Part shown: in pieces, positions 106 through 31,266 of the stretch
Position numbering within the stretch: position 1 is the stretch's first letter
Layout of the letters: each line of letters begins with the position of its first letter
From: Aphanocapsa sp. GSE-SYN-MK-11-07L
GTDB lineage: Bacteria > Cyanobacteriota > Cyanobacteriia > Thermosynechococcales > Thermosynechococcaceae
NCBI GenBank assembly: GCA_019359715.1
Contig: JAHHGS010000118.1
Span: forward strand, 1-36,222
Length of the DNA: 36,222 nucleotides
Direction: 5' to 3'
Program-made: the position numbers and the translations under genes
Notes under the pieces: model-generated
What the model was told of the DNA's origin: nothing
The model's input: the letters and a program-made list of their open reading frames with translations, nothing else
The model's database searches: none

Positions 106-1176
106 TTATAAAGCAACAAGTCTATTAAAGACAACCACAATCCGGCTGGGTTCATTCGTGGCTCGCTTGCTCAGCATGTGCTGAAGAAACAGTAGCGACC
201 CATCGTTAATTCGGGGCAAACCTGCACCAAACCGCCCATCAAATCCTTTCGTGTCCTGCTCTCGCTTAATAATGTATTCCACCTTGCGCCAGTCCACCCC
301 AAAGGGAGGATTAGAAAGCATATGACGAAAGCGGCGCTTATCGTGCCCATCTTCACTAAAGCTATTGCCGAAAATCAGCTTGCGGGGGTCTTCTCCTTTA
401 AGTAAAAAGTCAGCCTTAGCAACGGCATAGGCAGTAGGGTTAATTTCCTGTCCAAATAACTCCACCCGTGCGTTTGGATTGCGGTCAGGATGACAAATAT
501 AATTTTTTGCCTCTGTCAGCATTCCCCCAGTTCCACAGGCAGGATCGTAAATTGTGATGATCGCGTTGGGATTGATTAAGGCTTCCTCATCCTCTAACAA
601 CAGCAACCGCACCATCAGCCGAATCACTTCCCGTGGCGTAAAGTGTTCCCCAGCAGTTTCGTTATTGTCCTGGTTAAAGCGATAGATCAGATGCTCAAAA
701 ATCGAACCCATCTCATGGTTGTCGGTTACGTCTGGGTCAAGAAACCGAATGCCATCGAATTTTTGGAAGATCTGGTACAACAAATTTGCACTTTGCAGCC
801 GCGATACCTGACGACGAAAATCAAACTTTTCAATGATGTCTTGCACATCTGGGCTAAAACCGTTGAGATAATTAATCAGGTTTTGCGCCAGGCTGTTAGA
901 GTCATCTAGCAGCCGATCCCAGTCATACTCTGATATGTTGTAGACAAGGGAATCGCCAGCCGCCGAAGTGAGGACTCCATGCAGATTGTCTAGCTTGCCC
1001 TTATATTTTTCGTAAGCTTGACGCACTGTTTCACGAGTCGCTGCCATTGCCAGGTCGAGCCGCCGAATCACCACCATTGGCAAAATCACATCGGGATACT
1101 CTCGCCGCAGGTAATCACCCCGCAGCATATCGGCAAGGCTCCAAATGAAGTCTGCTTTTTCTTGAAAGTTAGCCAT
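106..1176 (-). pseudogene. hsdM: Type I restriction-modification methylase subunit HsdM, 3'-truncated
   Basis: The predicted 356-residue product is the N-terminal part of an N6-adenine DNA methyltransferase, the M subunit of type I restriction systems. The N-terminal helical HsdM domain covers about residues 1-140. The SAM-binding motif DPACGTGGML and the catalytic NPPF motif follow. The text matches the family up to SRIVVVFN. Family members then continue for another 100 or more residues, but here the frame runs into RLVAL and a stop. No hsdS or hsdR gene is present in the window. The break lies near position 124, next to an unrelated ORF tail, which suggests an insertion or deletion. The methylase is probably inactive because the rest of the fold and the specificity subunit are missing. 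The ATG at 1176 fits the family start. Confidence 0.85.
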
Positions 1177-1204
1177 CGGCGATTGTTTGTAGCTATCACA
1201 GTAT

Positions 1205-1260
1205 CCATTTTCATTAGATATTGAAAATGGGTTAAAAGCTGTATTTTACAAGCTTTTAAC
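1205..1260. promoter_or_regulatory. Two adjacent inverted repeats upstream of hsdM
   Basis: Two perfect inverted repeats lie back to back, 29-84 bp upstream of the hsdM start. The first has arms CCATTTTC (1205-1212) and GAAAATGG (1223-1230). The second has arms GTTAAAAGCT (1231-1240) and AGCTTTTAAC (1251-1260). Both have 10-nt spacers and their centres are 28 bp apart. This layout suits paired operators for a dimeric regulator. They could instead form hairpins in the 3' region of the oligopeptidase gene, which is transcribed toward them, but no T-run follows. Confidence 0.45.
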
Positions 1261-1328
1261 GTTCCGAACCAGAAGCATAGGATTCAAATTACTGTCACCT
1301 GCCCCTACTCCACTCTCACCCGCAACAG

Positions 1329-3413
1329 TCAAGAATACCGATGATTAAGGTCTGGAAAATGAATACCAAGAGTATGGACTAAAAAGGCCAGCCGATCGCC
1401 CATTTCATCAATTGCCTTGCTGGTGGGTTTGCCAGCGCCGTGTCCAGCTTTGGTTTCAATCCGAATCAAGACGGGTCTGGGGGCGCGCTGAGCAGCTTGG
1501 AGGGCAGCGGCAAACTTAAAGCTGTGGGCAGGCACGACGCGATCGTCATGGTCGGCGGTCGTGATCAGGGTGGCGGGGTAAGCCATACCCGATTGCAGGT
1601 TGTGCAGGGGTGAATAGTCGTACAGGTAGGCAAATTCTTCTGGGTCGTCGGCACAGCCATATTCTGGCACCCAGGCCCAGCCAATTGTGAACTGATGAAA
1701 GCGCAGCATGTCCATCACGCCCACGGCTGGGAGCGCTGCCGCAAATAAATCGGGGTGCTGGGTCATGCAGGCTCCGACCAGCAAGCCACCATTGCTGCCA
1801 CCCCCGATCGCCAGCTTAGTCGGGCAAGTGTAGCGCTGATCAATCAGCCAAACGGCAGCACTGACAAAATCATCAAACACATTTTGCTTGCGCCCCTTCA
1901 TGCCGGCTTGATGCCAGTCTTCGCCGTATTCGCCGCCACCCCGCAGACTGGGCACGGCATAAACACCGCCCAGCTCCATCCAAACTAAATTGCTAACCGA
2001 GAAGCTGGGCGTCAGAGAAATATTAAAGCCGCCATAGCCATACAGATAGGTTGGGTTACGCCCCTCCAGCTTGATTCCCTTTTTGTGAGTAATAAACAGA
2101 GGAATCTTCGTCCCATCCTTGCTGCGATAAAACACCTGGCGGGTTTCGTAAGCTTGCGGGTCAAAATCAATTTGGGGCTGCCGAAATAGACTGCTTTTCC
2201 CCGTCAGCATGTCGTAGCGGTAGATGCAGGTCGGAACCGTAAAACTAGTAAAGCTGTAGAAAGTTTCTGTGTCCGTCTGTCGGCCGCCAAACCCCCCCAC
2301 CGAACCGAGGCCGGGCAGGGCAACTTGGCGCTCAAATTTGCCTTTGAGGTCAAAGATTTTCACCTGAGCGTGAGCATCCTTCAGGTAGGCCGCTACGAAT
2401 TGGTGATTGATCAAACTCACCCCTTCCAGAGTTTCAGCCGCTTCGGGAATGATTTCTTGGCGCTGAGCGGGTTGAGCGGTGTCGATCGCAATCACTCGTC
2501 CTCTGGGGGCCTCTAGATCGGTTTGCAGCCAAAACACCGAGCCAGCATTGCCAATGAACTGATAGCTGGCTTTAAATTCGCTGACTAGCTCGACCACAGG
2601 CGAATCAGGGTTAGCCAAATCTTTGTAGAACAGTAAATTCTGGGAACTGCTGCCCCGCCAGACTGAAATTACTAAATAGCGCCCGTCTTCGCTGACGGTG
2701 CCATTAAAGCCCCACTCTGGCTGGTCGGGGCGATCGTAAATCAGTCGGTCTGCGGTTTGAGGCGTACCGAGGCGATGGAAGAACAGCTTTTGATGATAGT
2801 TGGTCGCTGCCAGGCTGGTATTAGGGTCGGGTTCATCGTAGCGGCTGTAGAAAAACCCTGGTTCGTGATGACTCCAACTTGCCCCCGAAAACTTGACCCA
2901 TTGCAGCCGATCGCCGATGTCTTTGCCTGTGGCAACCTCTTTCACCTGCCAGACTTGCCAGTCCGACCCGGCGGTGGACAGCCCGTAGGCCATCCACTGT
3001 CCGTCCTCGCTGAGCGACAGTCCAGACAGGGCGATCGTGCCATCGCTGGAAAGCTGATTCGGGTCGAGCAATACCTGGGGTTCAGCCTCTAAATCGGGCA
3101 GCGTGTAAAGGACGCTCTGGTTCTGCAAACCGTCGTTTTTGAGGTAAAAATATTGGCTGCCGCGCCGAAAAGGAGGGCTATATTTTTCGTAATTCCAAAG
3201 TTGGGTCAGCCGCTCAGTCAGAGCTGAGCGAGCTGGAATCTGAGCCAAAAAATCAAATGTAAGCTGATTTTGAGCCGTAATCCAATCTTGAGTCGCTGGG
3301 GACTGGCCTTCTTCTAACCAGCGATAGGGGTCACTGACTAACGTGCCGTGATAGTCATCAACCTGCTCAACGGTGGGGCTGATTGGGTAAGTATAAGTAA
3401 ACTTGGCAGACAT
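1329..3413 (-). CDS. Prolyl oligopeptidase family serine peptidase (S9A)
   Basis: A 694-residue protein of the usual prolyl oligopeptidase length. This family cleaves short peptides after proline, usually in the cytoplasm, and I see no signal peptide. The N-terminal part (about 1-70) and a seven-bladed beta-propeller (about 75-420) gate the active site. The C-terminal alpha/beta-hydrolase domain starts near residue 430. The catalytic triad is visible: Ser540 in GGGSNGG, Asp623 in DHDDRVVP and His658 in KAGHGAG. Arg625, just after the catalytic Asp, matches the substrate carboxylate-binding arginine of the family. The gene is 20 bp downstream of a small lipoprotein gene on the same strand and may share its transcript. 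The ATG at 3413 starts the standard YPxSP-like N-terminus. Confidence 0.95.
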   Translation of the reverse strand: MSAKFTYTYPISPTVEQVDDYHGTLVSDPYRWLEEGQSPATQDWITAQNQLTFDFLAQIPARSALTERLTQLWNYEKYSPPFRRGSQYFYLKNDGLQNQSVLYTLPDLEAEPQVLLDPNQLSSDGTIALSGLSLSEDGQWMAYGLSTAGSDWQVWQVKEVATGKDIGDRLQWVKFSGASWSHHEPGFFYSRYDEPDPNTSLAATNYHQKLFFHRLGTPQTADRLIYDRPDQPEWGFNGTVSEDGRYLVISVWRGSSSQNLLFYKDLANPDSPVVELVSEFKASYQFIGNAGSVFWLQTDLEAPRGRVIAIDTAQPAQRQEIIPEAAETLEGVSLINHQFVAAYLKDAHAQVKIFDLKGKFERQVALPGLGSVGGFGGRQTDTETFYSFTSFTVPTCIYRYDMLTGKSSLFRQPQIDFDPQAYETRQVFYRSKDGTKIPLFITHKKGIKLEGRNPTYLYGYGGFNISLTPSFSVSNLVWMELGGVYAVPSLRGGGEYGEDWHQAGMKGRKQNVFDDFVSAAVWLIDQRYTCPTKLAIGGGSNGGLLVGACMTQHPDLFAAALPAVGVMDMLRFHQFTIGWAWVPEYGCADDPEEFAYLYDYSPLHNLQSGMAYPATLITTADHDDRVVPAHSFKFAAALQAAQRAPRPVLIRIETKAGHGAGKPTSKAIDEMGDRLAFLVHTLGIHFPDLNHRYS

Positions 3414-15254: not shown

Positions 15255-17219
15255 ATGAGTAAAGCTAACCGCCAGTTGTGGAACAAGTTTTTGGCGATCG
15301 CCCAGCCCTATTTTTATCCCACCGATCAAAAGCGCAGTGGCGCCGCCTTTCTATGGTTGTTGCTGTTATTAGTCGTGTTTTTATTTGCGGCTTTGTTTGT
15401 GATCGTCAGTGCGGTCAGTCTAAGCTTGCAAGCTTTATTTCCTCAGACGTTTGGCAGCGTAGCGGGTGGATTAGTCAAATTAATTAGCGGCATTATCAAC
15501 TCGCCAGGCTCGATTGTGATTGGCTTGATGTTGCTAATTCCAACGGCGATGGCTGTTGTTTTTCGGCGAAACTTAATTCCTCGTTGGCAACCTTGGGCAC
15601 TGTTGGGGCTGCTATTACTGCTGTCACTCTCGGTCAGCGGCTTAAATGTAATCATCAGCTTCGTGGGACGATTTTTTCAAACTGCGCTGGCTGAAAAGGA
15701 TCAGCCGACTTTTTGGCGGTTTTTATTTGTCTATGCTGGCGTGTTTGTCGTGGGTACGCCGATTGTAGTGATTTATCGCTACGTTCGAGACAAGCTAGGT
15801 CTGAAATGGCGCGAGTGGTTAACCAACAATTTTTTAGAGCGCTATTTTCGTAATCGGGCTTATTACGACATTAACAGCAGTGATAAAATTGACAACCCAG
15901 ACCAACGAATTGCTGAAGATATCAGGTCTTTTACAGTCACTTCTCTCGGCTTTCTGTTAATCATTTTAGGAAACGTAATTGACTTAATCTCATTCACTGG
16001 GATTCTGATTTTAATTTCTTTACCGCTGACGATCGCCCTAATTATCTACGCCACTTTTGGCACAGTAATTACGATTTTGATCGGCCGCCGATTAATTCGC
16101 CTTAATTTTAATCAACTGCGGCGAGAAGCAGATTTTCGCTATGGATTGGTGCATGTTCGAGACAACTCTGAAGCGATCGCCTTCTATCGGGGTGAAGAGC
16201 AGGAATCATCGCAGGTGCGACGGCGATTGACAGAGGTACTGCAAAATTTTAATTTTTTAATTGGCTGGCGGCGGAACCTGAGCTTTTTTACGACTAGCTA
16301 TGGCTATTTCATCATTATTTTGCCTTCAATTGTGGTTGCACCAATCTATTTCGCAGGCAAAATAGATTTTGGCGCGATCTCCCAGGCAGGCTTTGCCTTT
16401 AGTCAAGTTTTGGGGGCACTGTCAATTATCGTCGATCAGTTTGATGAGTTAAGTGCATTTATTGCGGGGATTGACCGTCTGGCCGGCTTTGCTGATGTCT
16501 TAGATCCTGAAGATAAAACTGCCAATGGTACAGCCGGAATCGATACGGTTGAAGATGGTCGCTTAGCCCTAGAACACGTTACCGTTTTAACCCCCAACGG
16601 AGAGCGCACCTTGGTTAAAGACCTGTCTGTGGCGCTGGAATCTGGCGGTGGGCTGGTGATTGTTGGGCACAGTGGAGTTGGGAAGAGTTCTGTCTTAAGG
16701 GCGATCGCTGGCTTGTGGAATGCGGGCACCGGTAAAATTACCCGCCCCCAACCCGACCAAATGCTGTTTTTACCCCAACGCCCTTATATGATTTTGGGCA
16801 CCCTGCGCGATCAGCTCCTGTATCCCCACACAGACAGCCATACTTCTGAGTCAGAACTGCAAAAGGCGCTCAAACTGGTGAACTTGGAGAGTCTGCCAGA
16901 GCGAGTTGGTGGGTTTGACGTTGAGTTGGACTGGGCTGATGTGCTCTCTCTGGGGGAACAGCAGCGCCTCGCTGTCGCTCGCTTGTTGCTGACTCGGCCA
17001 CCGTTTGCAATTTTAGATGAAGCCACCAGCGCTCTTGATTTGAAGAACGAACAACTGGTTTACGAGCAAATTCAATCGACGGCTTCGGCATTTATCAGCG
17101 TCGGGCATCGCCCCAGCCTGCTCAAGTACCATCAGCAAGTCTTAGAACTGAAAGACGACGGCAGTTGGGAGTTGTCGAGTAGCCAAGATTATGTGCCGAA
17201 GGCAGAAGTGTTTAGTTAA
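15255..17219 (+). CDS. ABC transporter, fused permease and ATP-binding protein (SbmA/BacA or ABCD-like)
   Basis: A 654-residue half-transporter. The membrane domain has hydrophobic segments near 31-57, 85-102, 114-136, 155-175, 230-280 and 350-368, and carries the EDIRSFTVTS segment characteristic of the ABC_membrane_2 (SbmA/BacA, ABCD, Rv1819c) group. The nucleotide-binding domain has Walker A GHSGVGKS (471-478), signature LSLGEQQR (564-571), Walker B FAILDEA (584-590) and switch His618. It would work as a homodimer in the inner membrane. Relatives move peptides, cobalamin or acyl compounds, and the substrate here is unknown. Start ATG 15255. The DUF559 cassette begins within about 25 bp of its stop. 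Confidence 0.92.
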   Translation: MSKANRQLWNKFLAIAQPYFYPTDQKRSGAAFLWLLLLLVVFLFAALFVIVSAVSLSLQALFPQTFGSVAGGLVKLISGIINSPGSIVIGLMLLIPTAMAVVFRRNLIPRWQPWALLGLLLLLSLSVSGLNVIISFVGRFFQTALAEKDQPTFWRFLFVYAGVFVVGTPIVVIYRYVRDKLGLKWREWLTNNFLERYFRNRAYYDINSSDKIDNPDQRIAEDIRSFTVTSLGFLLIILGNVIDLISFTGILILISLPLTIALIIYATFGTVITILIGRRLIRLNFNQLRREADFRYGLVHVRDNSEAIAFYRGEEQESSQVRRRLTEVLQNFNFLIGWRRNLSFFTTSYGYFIIILPSIVVAPIYFAGKIDFGAISQAGFAFSQVLGALSIIVDQFDELSAFIAGIDRLAGFADVLDPEDKTANGTAGIDTVEDGRLALEHVTVLTPNGERTLVKDLSVALESGGGLVIVGHSGVGKSSVLRAIAGLWNAGTGKITRPQPDQMLFLPQRPYMILGTLRDQLLYPHTDSHTSESELQKALKLVNLESLPERVGGFDVELDWADVLSLGEQQRLAVARLLLTRPPFAILDEATSALDLKNEQLVYEQIQSTASAFISVGHRPSLLKYHQQVLELKDDGSWELSSSQDYVPKAEVFS

Positions 17220-17241
17220 AAGCCAGCGATGGAGCCAAATC

Positions 17242-17284
17242 CTCGACCCACCCCGCCCTGCGGGCACCCCTCCCAGGAGGGGAT
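17242..17284 (+). repeat. Left 43-bp inverted repeat of the DUF559 cassette
   Basis: This 43-bp sequence matches the reverse complement of 17665-17707 at 40 of 43 positions. It contains two small hairpins, GCCC/GGGC and the palindrome CCCCTCC/GGAGGGG. Its inner end supplies the AGGAGG ribosome site and the first two bases of the ATG of the enclosed gene. Confidence 0.85.
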
Positions 17285-17660
17285 GAGGTCGCCACGCTTT
17301 ATTCCCTATCGGCCGGATCTGAAGGAGCTGGCTCGTCAACTGCGCCAAAACATGACTCCTGGAGAGGTGATTTTGTGGCAACACTTAAAGAAGAAGCAGA
17401 TGGGCGGCTATGATTTTGATCGACAGCGACCAATTGACAAATATATTGTTGACTTCTACTGCAAAAAGCTGATGCTGGCGATCGAGATTGACGGCAGAAG
17501 CCACGACAGCGCAGCCGCCCAGCAAAGCGATCGCGTTCGTCAAGCCCAACTAGAGGCTCTAGGTGTCAAATTTCTCCGATTTCGGGAAGCACAAGTGCGC
17601 CATCAAACCCAGTCAGTTCTGCATACCATCCAAACCTGGATTACAAAACACACCCCCTAA
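17283..17660 (+). CDS. DUF559 (Vsr-like endonuclease fold) protein
   Basis: A 125-residue DUF559 protein. The core covers LKELARQLRQNMTPGEVILWQHL, then GYDFDRQRPIDKYIVDFYC and LAIEIDGRSH, followed by LGVKFLRF. The family has a restriction endonuclease/Vsr-like fold. The Asp of YIVDFYC and the Glu of AIEIDG are in the places expected for metal-binding catalytic residues. I place the start at ATG 17283, where the usual PYRPDLKELA N-terminus begins. An in-frame ATG at 17229 would merely translate the flanking repeat. The AGGAGG site lies only 2 nt before this ATG, closer than normal. The gene plus flanks are inserted between the ABC exporter and clpB genes. Confidence 0.85.
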   Translation: MRSPRFIPYRPDLKELARQLRQNMTPGEVILWQHLKKKQMGGYDFDRQRPIDKYIVDFYCKKLMLAIEIDGRSHDSAAAQQSDRVRQAQLEALGVKFLRFREAQVRHQTQSVLHTIQTWITKHTP

Positions 17661-17664
17661 AAAA

Positions 17665-17707
17665 ATCCCCTCCCAGGAGGGGTGCCCAAAGGGCGGGGTG
17701 GGTCAAG
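17665..17707 (-). repeat. Right 43-bp inverted repeat of the DUF559 cassette
   Basis: Mirror copy of 17242-17284 with three mismatches. It begins 4 bp after the DUF559 stop codon and ends 26 bp before the clpB stop. Its CCCCTCC/GGAGGGG palindrome could also serve as a terminator for the DUF559 gene. There is no obvious target-site duplication outside the two repeats. Confidence 0.85.
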
Positions 17708-17733
17708 GATAATGCCTCTCAACGAGAGACACC

Positions 17734-20352
17734 TCAAATCGTAGTGACTTGAGATGACAGACGATTGAACTGGAGCCGTTCATTGGCCACATCGACAAAT
17801 ATCGTGTCGCCGTCGGTGAATTCGCCGCGCAGAATCGCCTTCGCGATCGCCGTTTCCAGTTCGCGCTGAATTGCCCGCTTCAGCGGTCTGGCCCCAAATA
17901 CTGGGTCGTAGCCCACCTCGACCAGAAAATCGAGGGCGGCATCGGTTAGCTTCAGGGACATCTTGCGATCGCCCAGACGACCTTGCAGGCGCTGGACTTG
18001 CAGCTTCACAATCTCGCGCAGTTGCTCCTTCAGCAGGCTGTGGAAGATGATCACTTCATCGACCCGATTTAAGAACTCTGGGCGGAAATTGGCTCGCATC
18101 GCCTCCATCACCCGCTCTTGCATTTCGGCATAGCGGCTGTCGTCGCCAGCCAAATCCAAAATGAACTGGGAGCCAATGTTGCTGGTCATGATGATCACGG
18201 CGTTTTTGAAGTCCACCGTTCGCCCTTGGGAGCCTGTCACCCGTCCATCGTCCAAAATTTGCAGCATGATGTTGAACACATCCGGGTGGGCTTTTTCAAT
18301 TTCGTCAAACAAAATTACCGCATAGGGTCGGCGTCGGATTGATTCCGTCAGTTGCCCACCTTCTTCGTAGCCAACGTAGCCGGGAGGAGCGCCGACTAGG
18401 CGAGAAACGGAGTGTTTTTCCATGTACTCCGACATGTCAATTCGCACCATTGCCTCTTCGGTGTCAAACAGGTAGGCCGCTAGGGCTTTAGCTAGCTCAG
18501 TTTTGCCGACCCCAGTCGGGCCCAAGAAAATAAAGCTGGCGATCGGACGGTTCGGGTCGGCCAGCCCGGCCCGCGATCGCTGAATCGCATCAGCCACCGC
18601 CGTCACCGCTTCTTCTTGCCCGATCACTCGCTGGTGCAGCTCATCTTCCAGGTGCAAGAGCTTTTCCATTTCCGACTCGACCAGTTTGCTGACCGGGATG
18701 CCCGTCCACTTAGAAATAATTTCGGCAATGTCAGCTTCGGTGACTTCTTCCCGCAGCAGCGTGTGGGCGCTGGTTTGGGTTTGGCTCAGCTTAGTCTCAA
18801 TCTCGTCCAGTTGGCGCTGTAAGTCGGTCAGCTTGCCGTACTTTAGCTCGGCGGCGCGGTTGAGGTTATACTCCCGCTCCGCCTGTTGAATTTCGGTGTT
18901 GACCCGATCAATTTCTTCTTTGATCGTTTGAATCTGGTCAATAATCTGCTTTTCTGACTGCCACTGAGCATTCAGGTTAGATTGCTCTTCTTTCCAGTCT
19001 GCTAGTTCTTTTTCCAGTCGCTCTAGGCGCTCTTTGGCGGCCGGAGAACTTTCTTTTTGCAGGGATAGCCGCTCCATTTCCAGTTGCAGCACTTTGCGAT
19101 CGATTTCGTCCAGCTCTTCTGGCTTGGAGGTAATTTCCATTTTCAGCTTGGCCGCCGACTCGTCCATTAAATCGATCGCCTTGTCAGGCAAAAAGCGATC
19201 GCTAATATAGCGGGTCGAGAGCACAGCCGCTGCCACCAGGGCGCTATCAGATATTTTTACCCCGTGGTGGACTTCGTAGCGCTCTTTGAGTCCGCGCAGA
19301 ATCGAAACCGTATCTTCGACACTGGGCTGGTCAATAAACACCTGCTGAAAGCGCCGTTCTAGGGCGGCGTCTTTTTCAATATATTTACGGTATTCATCTA
19401 AGGTTGTGGCGCCAATACAGCGCAGTTCGCCCCGCGCCAACATCGGTTTGAGCAGGTTGCTGGCATCCATTGAGCCTTGGGTAGCTCCAGCCCCAACCAC
19501 GGTATGAATTTCATCAATAAATAAAATAATTTGCCCGTTTGATTCTGTCACTTCCTTGAGCACGGCCTTGAGGCGCTCTTCAAATTCGCCCCGGTACTTG
19601 GCTCCAGCAATCAGCGCCCCCATGTCGAGGGTAATCAACTGCCGATCGCGGAGCGACTCTGGCACATCTCTGGCAATAATCCGCTGGGCTAAGCCTTCGG
19701 CGATCGCGGTTTTGCCCACTCCTGGCTCGCCAATTAAGACTGGATTATTTTTAGTTCTTCGAGACAAAATTTGAATCGTGCGGCGAATTTCGTCATCGCG
19801 CCCAATCACCGGGTCAAGTTTGCCTTGGCGAGCCAGTTGGGTTAAATCTCGACCGTATTTTTCTAAAGAGGCGTATTTGCCTTCTGGGTTTTGATCTGTC
19901 ACTTTTTGACTACCGCGAATTTGTTCAACAACTTCTTTTAGCTTCCGCTCATCCAGCCCAAACTCTGCCAGCAGGGCTTTGCCAAACCGATCGTCTTGGG
20001 GATAGGCCAGCAGCATGTGTTCGATTGAAATAAAATCATCGCCCAACTGCTTGCGGAAATTCTCGGCTCGATCCAGCAGCGTATCTAAACTCCGCCCCAA
20101 GTAAACTGAACTGCTGGGGTTACTCAGTTTGGGCTGGCGCTTGATAAATTCTTCTGTGCGATCGCGCAGCCGCTGGACATTCACGCCCGCCTTGTTAAAA
20201 ATACTGCTAGCCAATCCATCCTGCTCTAGCAGCGCCATCATTAGGCTTTCACTTTCAATTTGCTGCTGCTGGGCTTGCTTAACAATTTCTGGGGTGCGGA
20301 CAATCGCTTCCCAGGCTTTTTCGGTAAACTGGTTGGCATTCGTTGGCTGCAT
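17734..20352 (-). CDS. clpB: ATP-dependent chaperone ClpB
   Basis: A full-length 872-residue Hsp100 disaggregase. It has the N-terminal Clp repeat domain (about 1-145). The first AAA+ module has Walker A GEPGVGKT (208-215) and Walker B ILFIDE (276-281). The long coiled-coil M domain (about 410-525) is what distinguishes ClpB from the protease partners ClpA and ClpC. The second AAA+ module has Walker A GPTGVGKT (611-618) and Walker B VILFDE (679-684). It extracts proteins from aggregates together with DnaK. The ATG at 20352 is preceded by a clear GGAGGG site. I see no CIRCE element upstream, but a 14-bp palindrome lies about 60 bp before the start. Confidence 0.97.
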
Positions 20353-27088: not shown

Positions 27089-27240
27089 GACAGGAGTTAC
27101 GCAGTTGAGTAAGTTTCTGACCTTTTTCGCCCCCCCAGCCCCCCAAATTTGGGGGGAGTCAGTTCTGAAGTCCCCCAGCATTGGGGGATTTAGGGGGCCA
27201 AGCAAATCTGCAATTCACGAATTATCCCACTGCTACAGAA
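27089..27240. repeat. Palindromic repeat cluster between the ABM and soxD genes
   Basis: The 166-bp gap is filled with repeats. ACAGGAGTTACGCA resembles a dispersed cyanobacterial repeat. A perfect 18-bp palindrome, CCCCCCAAATTTGGGGGG, lies at 27139-27156. A second hairpin, TCCCCC/GGGGGA (27171-27188), follows. The stretch 27168-27188 matches the repeat inside soxA (29358-29378) at 20 of 21 positions. It splits an otherwise tightly spaced cluster and may affect the transcript. Confidence 0.75.
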
Positions 27241-27241
27241 G

Positions 27242-27505
27242 ATGAAACTAATGACTTGCCCGGTAAATGGAACGCGACCGATTTCTGAATTTATCTGCGG
27301 TGGGGAACTGCGGCCAATGCCCGATCCAAACCAGGTAGACGATGAAACCTGGGCAGATTATGTCTTCCATCGCAACGGCGCAGCCGGAATCAAAGCCGAA
27401 TGGTGGTGCCATACCCCCAGCAACACTTGGTTTGTTGCCGAGCGGAATACGCAGATTGATCAGGTCTTGCGAACCTATCTATACGGGCAGGAGGAGCAGT
27501 CATGA
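27242..27505 (+). CDS. soxD: Sarcosine oxidase/N-methylglutamate dehydrogenase delta subunit (SoxD/MgdB-like)
   Basis: An 87-residue subunit starting MKLMTCPVNGTRPISEF, with YVFHRNGAAGIKAEWWCHTPSNTWFVAE in the centre. The delta subunit of sarcosine oxidase binds zinc through three Cys and one His, in the CPxCG and HxxxC motifs. Here C6 and H57 remain, but N9 and N61 stand where the other two cysteines are expected. C19 and C56 are extra. This could be a divergent subfamily with no zinc or a rearranged site. ATG 27242. The stop overlaps the soxA start by 4 bp (ATGA). Confidence 0.85.
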   Translation: MKLMTCPVNGTRPISEFICGGELRPMPDPNQVDDETWADYVFHRNGAAGIKAEWWCHTPSNTWFVAERNTQIDQVLRTYLYGQEEQS

Positions 27506-30500
27506 ACTTGCGATCGCCCACCCTCCCCAGCGAGTGGATTGACCGGACGCAGCCGATTCAGTTCACGTTTGAAGGCAAGTCCTACAGCGGCTATGCCGGA
27601 GATACGATTACCAGTGCTCTCTGGGCGGCCGGGCAATCTGTCTTGGGTAGAAGCTTTAAGTACCATCGTCCACGCGGCATTCTCAGTCTGGCTAACCACG
27701 ACATAAATACGCTGATGCAGGCGGGGCAGCAGCACAACCTGCGGGCTGATGTCACACCGATTGTCGAAGGAATGCAACTTACTGCCGTCAATACCTGGGG
27801 CGGCGTTGATCGCGATCGGGCCAGGCTGATCAACCAGTTTTCGGCTTTTTTGCCAGTTGGGTTTTACTACAAAGCTTTTTTGGATAAAGTCAGCTTTCCG
27901 TTCTGGGAAAAAGTGATTCGGACGATGACGGGCTTGGGCAAGGTTGACTTTACGACGCCCAGAATTAGCACCCCCAAACGCTACGATTTTTGCGACCTGC
28001 TGGTAGTGGGAGCCGGCCCCTCCGGGCTATCGGCCGCCCTGGCAGCGGCTGAGCGGGGAGCAGATGTGGTGATTGTGGATGAAAACGCCAGGGCAGGCGG
28101 GTCTGGAGGCTATCACTACGGGACGATCACCCAAACCGCCAATCTGCTTGCTGCCGTTGCCCAGCATCCCCAAATTCGGCTTTACACCGACACGACGGCG
28201 GCGGGCTACTACGCTGACTTTTGGATTCCCCTTGTCAACCCAGACTACATGGTCAAAATGCGGGCCAAATCCATGATCGTGGCCAGCGGTGCCTACGAGC
28301 AGCCGGCCGTATTTCGGAACAATGACCTGCCGGGGGTGATGCTGGCCTCGGCCGGGCAGCGCTTGCTCTATCGCTATGCCGTCAAACCGGCTGAGCGAGT
28401 GGTAATTTTGACCGCCAATAGCGATGGCTATCGAGCCGCGATCGACATGGCCAAGCACGATGTCACCGTCGCTGCCGTGCTGGACTGGCGGGATCGCCCT
28501 AGCAATTCTGACCTAGTGGCTAAAGTTGAGTCTTTTGATATCCCAGTCTTAACGGGGCACTGCTTTTACGAGGCGATTCCTAACTCAAGTGGCGATCGGG
28601 TGGCGGCAGTGATTGCTTGTCCCGTTGATACCGAGGGCAATCCCCAGCCAGAGCGACGGCAACGGATTGAGTGTGACGGCGTGTTAGTCAGCGTGGGTTG
28701 GAGTCCGGCCGCCAACTTGCTCTACCAAGCTGGCACCAAAATGCGGTTTGATCTTGAACTGGAACAGTACGTCCCAGAAGTCTTACCGCCAGGAATTTTT
28801 GCCTGCGGACGGGTGAATGGCGTCTACGACTTTGCCCAAAAATTACTGGATGGACAGAGAGCCGGACTGGCGGCGGCTACTAATTTAGGGCTGGGATCAG
28901 CGGAAACGATCGCGATTGCTCCAGCTAGTGAATCTCCTACTCATCCCTATCCGATCGTGGCTCACCCGAAGGGGAAAAACTTTGTCGATTTTGACGAAGA
29001 CTTGCAGCTCAAGGATTTTCACCACGCCATTCAGGAAGGCTTTGACAATATTGAACTCCTCAAGCGCTACTCAACGGTTGGGATGGGGCCGAGCCAAGGC
29101 AGGCACTCCAACATGAACGCGATTCGGATCTTGGCCCGATCGCTGGGCAAAACTCCAGCCGAGGTGGGCACAACCACGGCCCGCCCCTTCTTTCATCCGG
29201 TGCCGATTTCTCACCTAGCTGGCAGAAGCTTTTTACCGGAGCGATTCACGCCTTTGCATCAACTTCATCAAGATTTGGGGGCAGTGTTTATGCTGGCCGG
29301 TCAGTGGCGACGACCGGAATACTATAGACCTCCGGCGCGAAACCCGGCAAGCCCCCTAAGTCCCCCAGAATTGGGGGACTTCAAATCCGGTTCCCCCCAG
29401 AATTGGGAAGCCACTGCGTTGGGCGGGTTCCCCGACTTGAAGCAAGTGGCGTGGGCTAGGGGGGCGAAAGATCATTCATGTAAAGAATTTTATGTCCAGC
29501 CTAACCAAAGCCGTGAACAGTGTATCCAAGCCGAAGTTAACGCCGTGCGCCAACAGGTGGGGCTGATTGATGTTGGTACGCTCGGCAAGCTAGAACTGCG
29601 CCGTGAACAGTGTATCCAAGCCGAAGTTAACGCCGTGCGCCAACAGGTGGGGCTGATTGATGTTGGTACGCTCGGCAAGCTAGAACTGCGGGGGCCAGCG
29701 GCAGCAGAGTTTCTGGAGCGAGTCTACGGCGGGCGCTATGCCAACCTAAAAGTCGGGATCAGCCGCTATGCCCTGATGCTGGATGAAGCTGGGGTGGTGA
29801 TTGACGATGGCGTAATTGCCCGCTTGGGGGCAGAACATTTTTACTCTACGACCACTACTTCTGGGGCAGCGGCCGTCTACCGAGAGCTATCGCGGCTGAA
29901 CACGATCTGGCAGTTGGACTGTGGGATTGTTAACCTGACTGGGGCGCGATCGGCGGTTAACCTGGCTGGCCCGCAAGCCCAATGCGTATTAGCCAAGCTA
30001 ACCAGTTTAGACCTGTCGGGGACGGCATTTCCTTATTTGGGGGTACGGGAGGGACTGGTGGCCGGCATCCCAGCGCTGCTGATGCGAGTTGGCTTTGTCG
30101 GAGAATGGGGCTACGAAATTCACGTAGCGGCTGAGTATGGGCCGGCGCTCTGGTCAGCCTTAATCGAGGCGGGGGCAAAGGTTGGCATTCGTCCGTTTGG
30201 GGTGGAAGCTCAGCGGCTGCTGCGACTGGAGAAAGGGCATCTGATTATTGGCCAAGATACCGATGGCTTAACCACGCCCCGCGAAGCGGGTTTGAACTGG
30301 GCGATCAAGCTAGACAAACCTTTTTTTGTTGGTCTGCGCAGCCTGCAAGTTCTCGCCAAACAACCGCTCAAACAAAAGCTAGTTGGCTTCCGGTTGCCCC
30401 AAGATTTTGCTAGCACGCCTCCCCAAGAGTGCTGCTTAGTGATTGAAGGAACCGAGATTGCTGGTCGAGTCACCAGCATTGCCTTTAGCCCTACGCTTGA

Positions 30501-31266
30501 CCACTACATTGGTTTAGCCTACGTCAAGCCGGAATTAAACCTTGGCGATCGCTTTTCAATCCGTACCCCAGAAGGTAGCTTGGTCACAGCCACGGTTTGC
30601 CCCACCCCTTTCTATGATCCTGAATCACTCCGCCAAAAAGTCGAAGCTGCTCAGCCAGAAGCAGAGCGATCGGCGCTCAAGGGCAGGCGGGTTAGCCCCC
30701 TGCACGGACTCAGCAGTGATGACAAGACTGGACAGATTACGATCGCCGACCTGTCTAGCCGACCTCGGTTTGGGGTCAAGGGGTCTGGCGCAGCCGCATG
30801 GTTGGCCAGTCTGTTGCTGCCAATTCCCGATCGCCCCAATACCTGGCTGCCTCTAGATCAAGACAGCTTAATTGCCCGTTTGGGACTGAATGAATATTTG
30901 ATCGAATCGGAGTCTGCCTGGACTAAATTTATCGCAAATCAGAATTTTCCGGTTCAGGTATATCCTGTCTTGCGGCAGGATGCAGCGATCGCCCTGTCTG
31001 GCCCAGCGGTCAACGAACTACTGCTGCAAACCTGCAATATCAACTTTCAAGTGCTCAATTTGGCTGAGCGTCCGCTGGTGATCACAACCATGGTTGGCGT
31101 GACCGTACAGGTGATCCCAATCACCGTTAACGGCGAAGTCACTTACCGAATCTGGTGTGATGGCACCTTTGGCCCCTACCTATACCAAACCCTGCTCAAA
31201 GTTGCCCACGATTTAGGTGCGCCCGATATTCAACCAATCCACAAGCTGGTGAAGGAAACACCTTGA
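27502..31266 (+). CDS. soxA: Sarcosine oxidase/N-methylglutamate dehydrogenase alpha subunit fused to gamma subunit (SoxA-SoxG, MgdC-MgdD-like)
   Basis: A 1254-residue protein. An N-terminal Fer2-like domain (about 10-100) is followed by a NAD-binding Rossmann domain, [19 protein letters not shown] (168-186). The C-terminal half is a GCV_T-type folate-binding aminomethyltransferase domain, from about residue 671. Residues about 1063-1254 ([16 protein letters not shown], then a [21 protein letters not shown] segment) resemble the separate gamma subunit SoxG/MgdD, so alpha and gamma appear fused. Two oddities fall just before the folate domain: a repeat-derived insert of about 55 residues (about 613-669), and a perfect 30-residue tandem duplication (671-700 and 701-730). 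The frame stays open through both. Whether the product folds normally is unclear. It starts at ATG 27502 overlapping soxD, and its TGA overlaps the next ATG. Confidence 0.85.
29351..29450 (+). repeat. In-frame palindromic repeat inside soxA
   Basis: The stretch carries a 9-bp perfect hairpin AAGTCCCCC/GGGGGACTT (29358-29366 and 29373-29381), then a further CCCCCCAGAATTGGG-like unit, then a segment reading [15 protein letters not shown]. The hairpin core equals the intergenic repeat at 27168-27188. Family members lack this part, so it looks like an inserted element whose length keeps the reading frame. It probably extends to about 29508. Confidence 0.75.
29511..29690 (+). repeat. Perfect 90-bp tandem duplication in soxA
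   Basis: 29511-29600 and 29601-29690 are identical over all 90 bases, each beginning CCGTGAACAG and ending TAGAACTGCG. The unit is 30 codons, so the frame is kept, and it encodes the first strands and helix of the folate-binding domain. Total identity implies a recent event or an assembly error. Confidence 0.93.

Follow-up and report, generated by a model that had tools for sequence, protein, structure and literature searches.

The window, as we call the whole 36,222-nucleotide stretch of DNA that was analysed, comes from a cyanobacterial draft genome with GCGATCGC-rich sequence. It contains a compact unit, flanked by an ABC transporter gene (15255-17219) on one side and a clpB-like gene (17734-20352) on the other, with the following features:

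17239..17284, + strand, left terminal palindromic repeat, which runs into the ATG and carries the ribosome-binding sequence
17283..17660, + strand, DUF559 (PF04480, YcjD-like) nuclease gene, 125 aa from the ATG at 17283
17665..17710, - strand, right terminal palindromic repeat, the inverted copy of the left arm
17236..17707, no strand, whole unit, delimited by DNA matches to two relatives, G011 (17236-17705) and G009 (17246-17707), that end at the repeats

The left arm is made up of a tail ACCCACCCC, a mini-hairpin GCCCTGCGGGC, and a hairpin CCCCTCCCAGGAGGGG. The two arms are inverted, 46 nt long, and 89% complementary, with 41/46 positions matching by direct count; the original prediction had described 43-bp inverted repeats with 40 of 43 positions identical, and the repeats proved real while the identity over that length is 38/43. 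The layout around the gene is as predicted: the ribosome-binding sequence of the DUF559 gene (AGGAGGGG) is part of the left arm, the end of which falls inside the ATG at 17283, and the right arm begins at 17665, 4 bp past the stop codon (17658-17660). An alternative longer reading frame for the gene starts from 17229. The arms are beyond chance, given that the inverted-arm score of the unit is 33.5 whereas the highest score among 110 control windows is 14.5. The bases adjoining the arms carry on the inverted repeat imperfectly, and no target-site duplication was seen at the ends of the unit. The 5.1-Mb genome holds no further copy of the repeat, which is thus found at this unit only; a look-alike located inside a coding gene was rejected as a copy. 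DUF559 is the sole coding content of the unit, which has terminal inverted repeats, as does a DDE insertion sequence or a MITE, and in which a DDE transposase is absent. The 466-bp unit encodes no intein halves either.

The DUF559-type assignment of the gene was borne out by a match of the protein to PF04480 at 109 bits (cut-off 20.6, E=1e-31), and the profile matches are confined to DUF559 and related nuclease models, with no HUH/Y1 transposase among them. Four residues, D58, E69, D71, and H75, are invariant across 36 sequences. The predicted structure (pLDDT 90.5) has NGO0050 (3hrl) as its best solved match, followed by I-Bth0305I (3r3p) and, weakly, Vsr (1vsr), and the relation to I-Bth0305I is found both by sequence profile (E=5.5e-6) and by Foldseek (E=3e-4). 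Profiles and the predicted model place DUF559 among the Vsr-like PD-(D/E)XK nucleases, near the homing endonuclease I-Bth0305I. YcjD was earlier assigned to the PD-(D/E)XK superfamily near Vsr (PMC1189080), and one DUF559 gene has been placed in the EDxHD homing family (PMC9403480). The EDxHD/Vsr-like homing endonucleases, of which I-Bth0305I is the nearest solved member, would share the fold of DUF559, but the window unit and most other loci have no intron or intein, and palindromic repeats frame the gene instead. One relative (G021) carries a DUF559 domain flanked by intein-like halves in a large gene (L029, about 829-3279).

A DNA search of the relatives found window positions 17236-17705 in G011 and 17246-17707 in G009. 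In both cases the homology ends at the repeats and the alignment shows unrelated DNA outside the unit (in this alignment L027 was left unreoriented, hence its repeats align and its gene does not). On the clpB side, the DNA match in all 38 relatives ends outside the unit (query start at least 1153), indicating that the arrangement is not a fixed feature of this locus. Taken together, these matches mean that the unit is absent here in the relatives and present elsewhere with the same ends, at unrelated places. Of the mobile cassette originally proposed, the defined unit with its own ends therefore stands, as the homology to G011 and G009 ends at the repeats, whereas its self-spreading does not, with no target duplication and no movement observed. 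The source genome also has two further DUF559 genes, one of them partial, each lying between palindromes that belong to another family, GATCCCCCTAAATCCCCCTTAAAAAGGGGGA, which led us to widen the enquiry from a single cassette to DUF559 genes generally. The original prediction had overlooked these two genes, as well as the spread of the pattern among bacteria and the membership of the repeats in an orphan class already described.

The survey of DUF559 loci covered the order, named bacterial contigs spanning many phyla, and 386 genomes of the phylum. The same repeat occurs on both sides, within 320 bp, at 153 of the 187 full-length loci, which include cyanobacteria, Bacteroidota, and other phyla, and a framing repeat is absent at the remaining 34/187. 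Inverted arms with a score of at least 14 were found at 85/127 DUF559 loci versus 5/721 control windows on the same loci (p=7e-78). A comparison with ORFs shorter than 300 aa of the same contigs, which is stricter because some repeats are swallowed by long open frames, gave 39/67 framed DUF559 genes versus 14/176 framed ORFs (p=8e-16). Direct repeat pairs around DUF559 are almost as frequent as inverted ones, since at many loci the repeat on either side is itself paired; the arrangement seen in the window, with simple terminal inverted repeats, is thus one among several, and the idea that the inverted orientation is essential is weakened. In Neisseria gonorrhoeae, the DUF559 gene lies between 72-bp direct repeats built on this shared plan; in Deinococcus, a copy within a paa operon lies between 56-bp inverted arms. 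Four loci (L077, L143, L122, and L126) have DUF559 flanked by long direct repeats exceeding one palindrome. Phages gave two weak matches only. Overall, the pairing of DUF559 with palindromes is well supported, and the outcome in which repeats occur at random with no link to DUF559 was not the one obtained.

Across lineages, the GC-rich repeats follow a common plan with differing letters, namely a C-run, a loop, a G-run, a linker (TTA, CTA, or ATTTA), a second G-run, and a tail. In the window arms, the C-run/G-run/second G-run pattern spans 17251-17282 and 17667-17698, and in the window clade an 11-nt mini-hairpin replaces the linker (the second loop), which is TTA or CTA at other loci. The repeats fold as hairpins when single-stranded, with z of about -1.3 to -2. 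Some copies form inverted pairs with a short spacer, as in a tandem array in G108, where repeat pairs with a 15-nt spacer adjoin the DUF559 gene. Solo repeats are numerous in several genomes of the window clade (40 in G108 and 47 in G243), and BoxC-like motifs reach up to hundreds of copies in some cyanobacteria.

The repeats also follow the nuclease lineage. Protein identity correlates with repeat similarity (r=0.37, 0/500 permutations), and the correlation persists after removal of loci with homologous flanks (r=0.30, 0/1000 permutations). Paralogues of different clades in one genome have a repeat similarity of 0.26 (background 0.29), versus 0.58 for one clade across different genomes (p=3e-6). 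Each DUF559 clade thus has its own palindrome, even when two clades share one genome, and this within-genome contrast argues against flanks that merely mirror the repeats of the host. Copy number is associated with the nuclease as well. The window-type repeat is present in 7/14 genomes that have the window clade versus 4/372 without it (p=4e-9). Among 129 genomes of the class, counted without family f2, whose small genomes have neither, the general motif has a median of 19 copies with DUF559 versus 0 without (within-family permutation p=2e-4), the copy numbers being approximate as the pattern counts overlapping C-runs repeatedly. In one genome, G046, 11 repeat copies were counted with no DUF559 detected.

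The plan of these repeats is that of a known class. BoxC/PIT/intrastrand triplex motifs (TM), known since the 1990s, are present in 23 copies in E. coli K-12, some of them as inverted pairs, and in more than 260 genomes, with TTA or CCG as the linker of the second loop; they were linked to instability, a connection with mobile elements was not found, no mover or partner was known, and DUF559 is not mentioned (Holder et al. 2015, PMC4666352). We found no published pairing of DUF559 with BoxC/PIT/TM in the literature searched, in which subscription papers and preprints were sparsely covered. The architecture of a C-run, a G-run, and a second G-run is the same as in the DUF559-framing repeats, the triplex form being a prediction; the 11-nt mini-hairpin of the window variant takes the place of the TTA or CCG loop. 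YcjD of E. coli and NGO0050 of Neisseria belong to the family of the window DUF559, and repeats adjoin both genes. In K-12, TMECO no. 9 (CCCTCGCCCCTCTGGGGAGAGGGTTAGGGTGAGGGG, 1,351,239-1,351,204) lies between ycjD and fabI, 167 bp from ycjD (1,351,407-1,351,760), the DUF559 gene of this strain, making the two neighbours. Unlike in the window, repeats at ycjD stand on a single side, ycjD and the eef operon alternate at the site, and this arrangement is probably a relic. A ycjD-spanning query is covered over at least 80% of its length in 3361/5426 E. coli genomes. Strains negative for ycjD were considered as empty sites and rejected, as the eefRABCD efflux operon is there instead. The repeat sites of E. 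coli differ by the replacement of whole intergenic blocks rather than by simple insertion, so that no insertion footprint, i.e. a target duplication, can be read from them. In strain SW071611 (L306), a deletion runs between a short direct match and a BoxC copy, and tauD is extended into the repeat.

DUF559 is also found within other genes. Up to 27/194 DUF559 domains lie inside long open frames, and repeat-framed copies stand in frame in restriction-modification genes and in priA, the hosts including MmeI and Eco57I methylases, HsdR, DUF1156, N6_N4_Mtase, and PriA, the last in family f40 of the phylum. The Eco57I-type gene of L014 was seen in three states. In G018 the gene contains repeat-DUF559-repeat (645 bp, in frame); in G036 the repeats without DUF559 stand at the identical place; and in G484, with a 95% identical protein, only CCC/GATGAGGG is present. 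The G484 state is the nearest to an empty site, but it keeps this CCC/GATGAGGG remnant and may be a deletion; a clean pre-insertion site was not found in this gene or in the E. coli comparisons. In priA of genus g104, DUF559 is present in 4/29 genomes, and in most of the remainder a 67-73-nt linker or another insert is found, nearly always in frame. This linker (L311-L335) is a hot spot that has received several unrelated inserts in frame, some of them palindromic. In genus g28 (L274-L277), three species have a DUF559/repeat block next to a DHODH-like gene, at a rearrangement breakpoint, and the block is absent in a fourth, which retains 11 repeats. This last genome, G046, lacks DUF559 at that place and was considered as a syntenic empty site, but was rejected because of the breakpoint.

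From the framing, the clade-specific matching, the copy-number association, the occurrence of the unit at other sites, the in-frame copies, and the site states, all of which are observed, the simplest reading is a nuclease that mobilises or maintains the repeats. We give about an even chance to the window unit being a copy of a widespread two-part system of a DUF559 nuclease and its framing palindromes, with nuclease-driven copying and with repeats that are non-autonomous when they lack the gene. The repeats would be the ends of the nuclease gene, and gene-less copies, single or as inverted pairs, would be the non-autonomous elements. DUF559 would recognise the folded repeat of its own family as a hairpin or a triplex, probably in single-stranded form at the replication fork, and may cut there. 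Repair of the break would then copy the repeat-bounded segment, whether or not it holds the nuclease gene, to other places. The proposal is weakened by the lack of a target duplication and of a clean empty site, by the repeats without DUF559 in G046, by the 34/187 unframed loci, by the block replacements at E. coli repeat sites together with the alternation of ycjD and an efflux operon, and by the frequency of direct pairs.

By analogy, such a system would work like REPIN-RAYT with an unrelated enzyme. In REPIN-RAYT, for example in Pseudomonas, REP palindromes are associated with a Y1/HUH transposase (PMC3116915, PMC3733652). The two are alike in that one small enzyme gene lies within short palindromes that are also dispersed as singlets and inverted pairs, and in that the palindrome type tracks the enzyme lineage. 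They differ in the enzyme, an HUH transposase in one and a predicted PD-(D/E)XK nuclease in the other; in the GTAG or CGTC tag, which is absent from both window arms; and in the palindrome, which in the DUF559 system is built of a C-run, a G-run, and a second G-run and often lies in frame inside genes. Rickettsia palindromic elements, by description, resemble the DUF559 unit in being short palindromes in frame within coding genes, and we know of no nuclease partner for them. More broadly, and with somewhat less than even confidence, DUF559 and BoxC-like triplex-forming palindromes may constitute a separate, phylum-spanning class of mobile elements, in which the nuclease alone moves palindrome-bounded DNA, including by in-frame gene insertion, and which would be the source of the orphan bacterial BoxC/PIT/TM repeats.

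The main rival is homing, in which DUF559 does not make the repeats but cuts where they lie, and double-strand-break repair copies the gene into the cut sites, repeat-gene-repeat being an occupied site. The nearest characterised relative, I-Bth0305I, is a mobile-intron homing endonuclease, the DUF559 of L029 lies between intein-like segments, the gene-less pair of G036 sits exactly at the place of repeat-DUF559-repeat in G018, and the 15-nt-spaced pairs of G108 adjoin the gene; the three-state site would be consistent with homing too. We nevertheless regard it as rather unlikely, since homing alone leaves unexplained the tens to hundreds of solo repeats that track the presence of DUF559, as well as the clade-own repeats in the same genome, unless cutting spreads the repeats too. 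An improbable alternative is that nothing is mobile: DUF559 would be a resident nuclease, kept beside its substrate, that repairs or processes repeats folding at the fork. The Vsr-like fold, the folding of the single-stranded repeats, and the tie of E. coli triplex motifs to instability (Holder et al. 2015, PMC4666352) agree with such a role, but a repair enzyme need not sit between copies of its substrate, in frame in other genes, or at varying places in relatives.

Still less probable is carriage of the unit by another transposon, with the palindromes as terminators or passengers. The DUF559 copies of G001 and G005 (L010, L013, L024, L025, and L033) do belong to a larger repeated segment, which a second transposon may carry, with long inverted outer ends that start about AGTRCAGGACAAAACT, outside the palindromes. 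However, such outer ends are absent from the window unit and its relatives, their homology ends at the palindromes, and the palindrome-nuclease pairing holds across phyla. Finally, a chance placement of DUF559 in the repeat-rich intergenic DNA of palindrome-rich genomes, suggested by the hundreds of motif copies in some cyanobacteria, is hardly credible in view of the matched ORFs, the within-genome clade test, and the mere two copies of the window repeat.

If nuclease-driven copying of palindrome-bounded DNA is correct, it would be a second, independent nuclease-palindrome partnership besides REPIN-RAYT and a possible way for palindromes to be inserted into coding genes in frame. The long-orphaned repeat class of E. 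coli BoxC and its kin gains a candidate mover, and the pairing gives a testable role both to the repeats and to the DUF559/YcjD proteins, which are widespread and have had no established function. E. coli K-12, where ycjD and the 23 described repeats are present, lends itself to assays of the pair.

Elsewhere in the window, the other palindrome family (CCCCCAGCATTGGGGGATTTAGGGGGC type) is represented by copies at 29351-29407 and 27131-27198. The former is read through in frame within a sarcosine-oxidase-alpha-like gene (27502-31266), which also contains an exact 90-bp tandem duplication, a multiple of 3, at 29510-29689.
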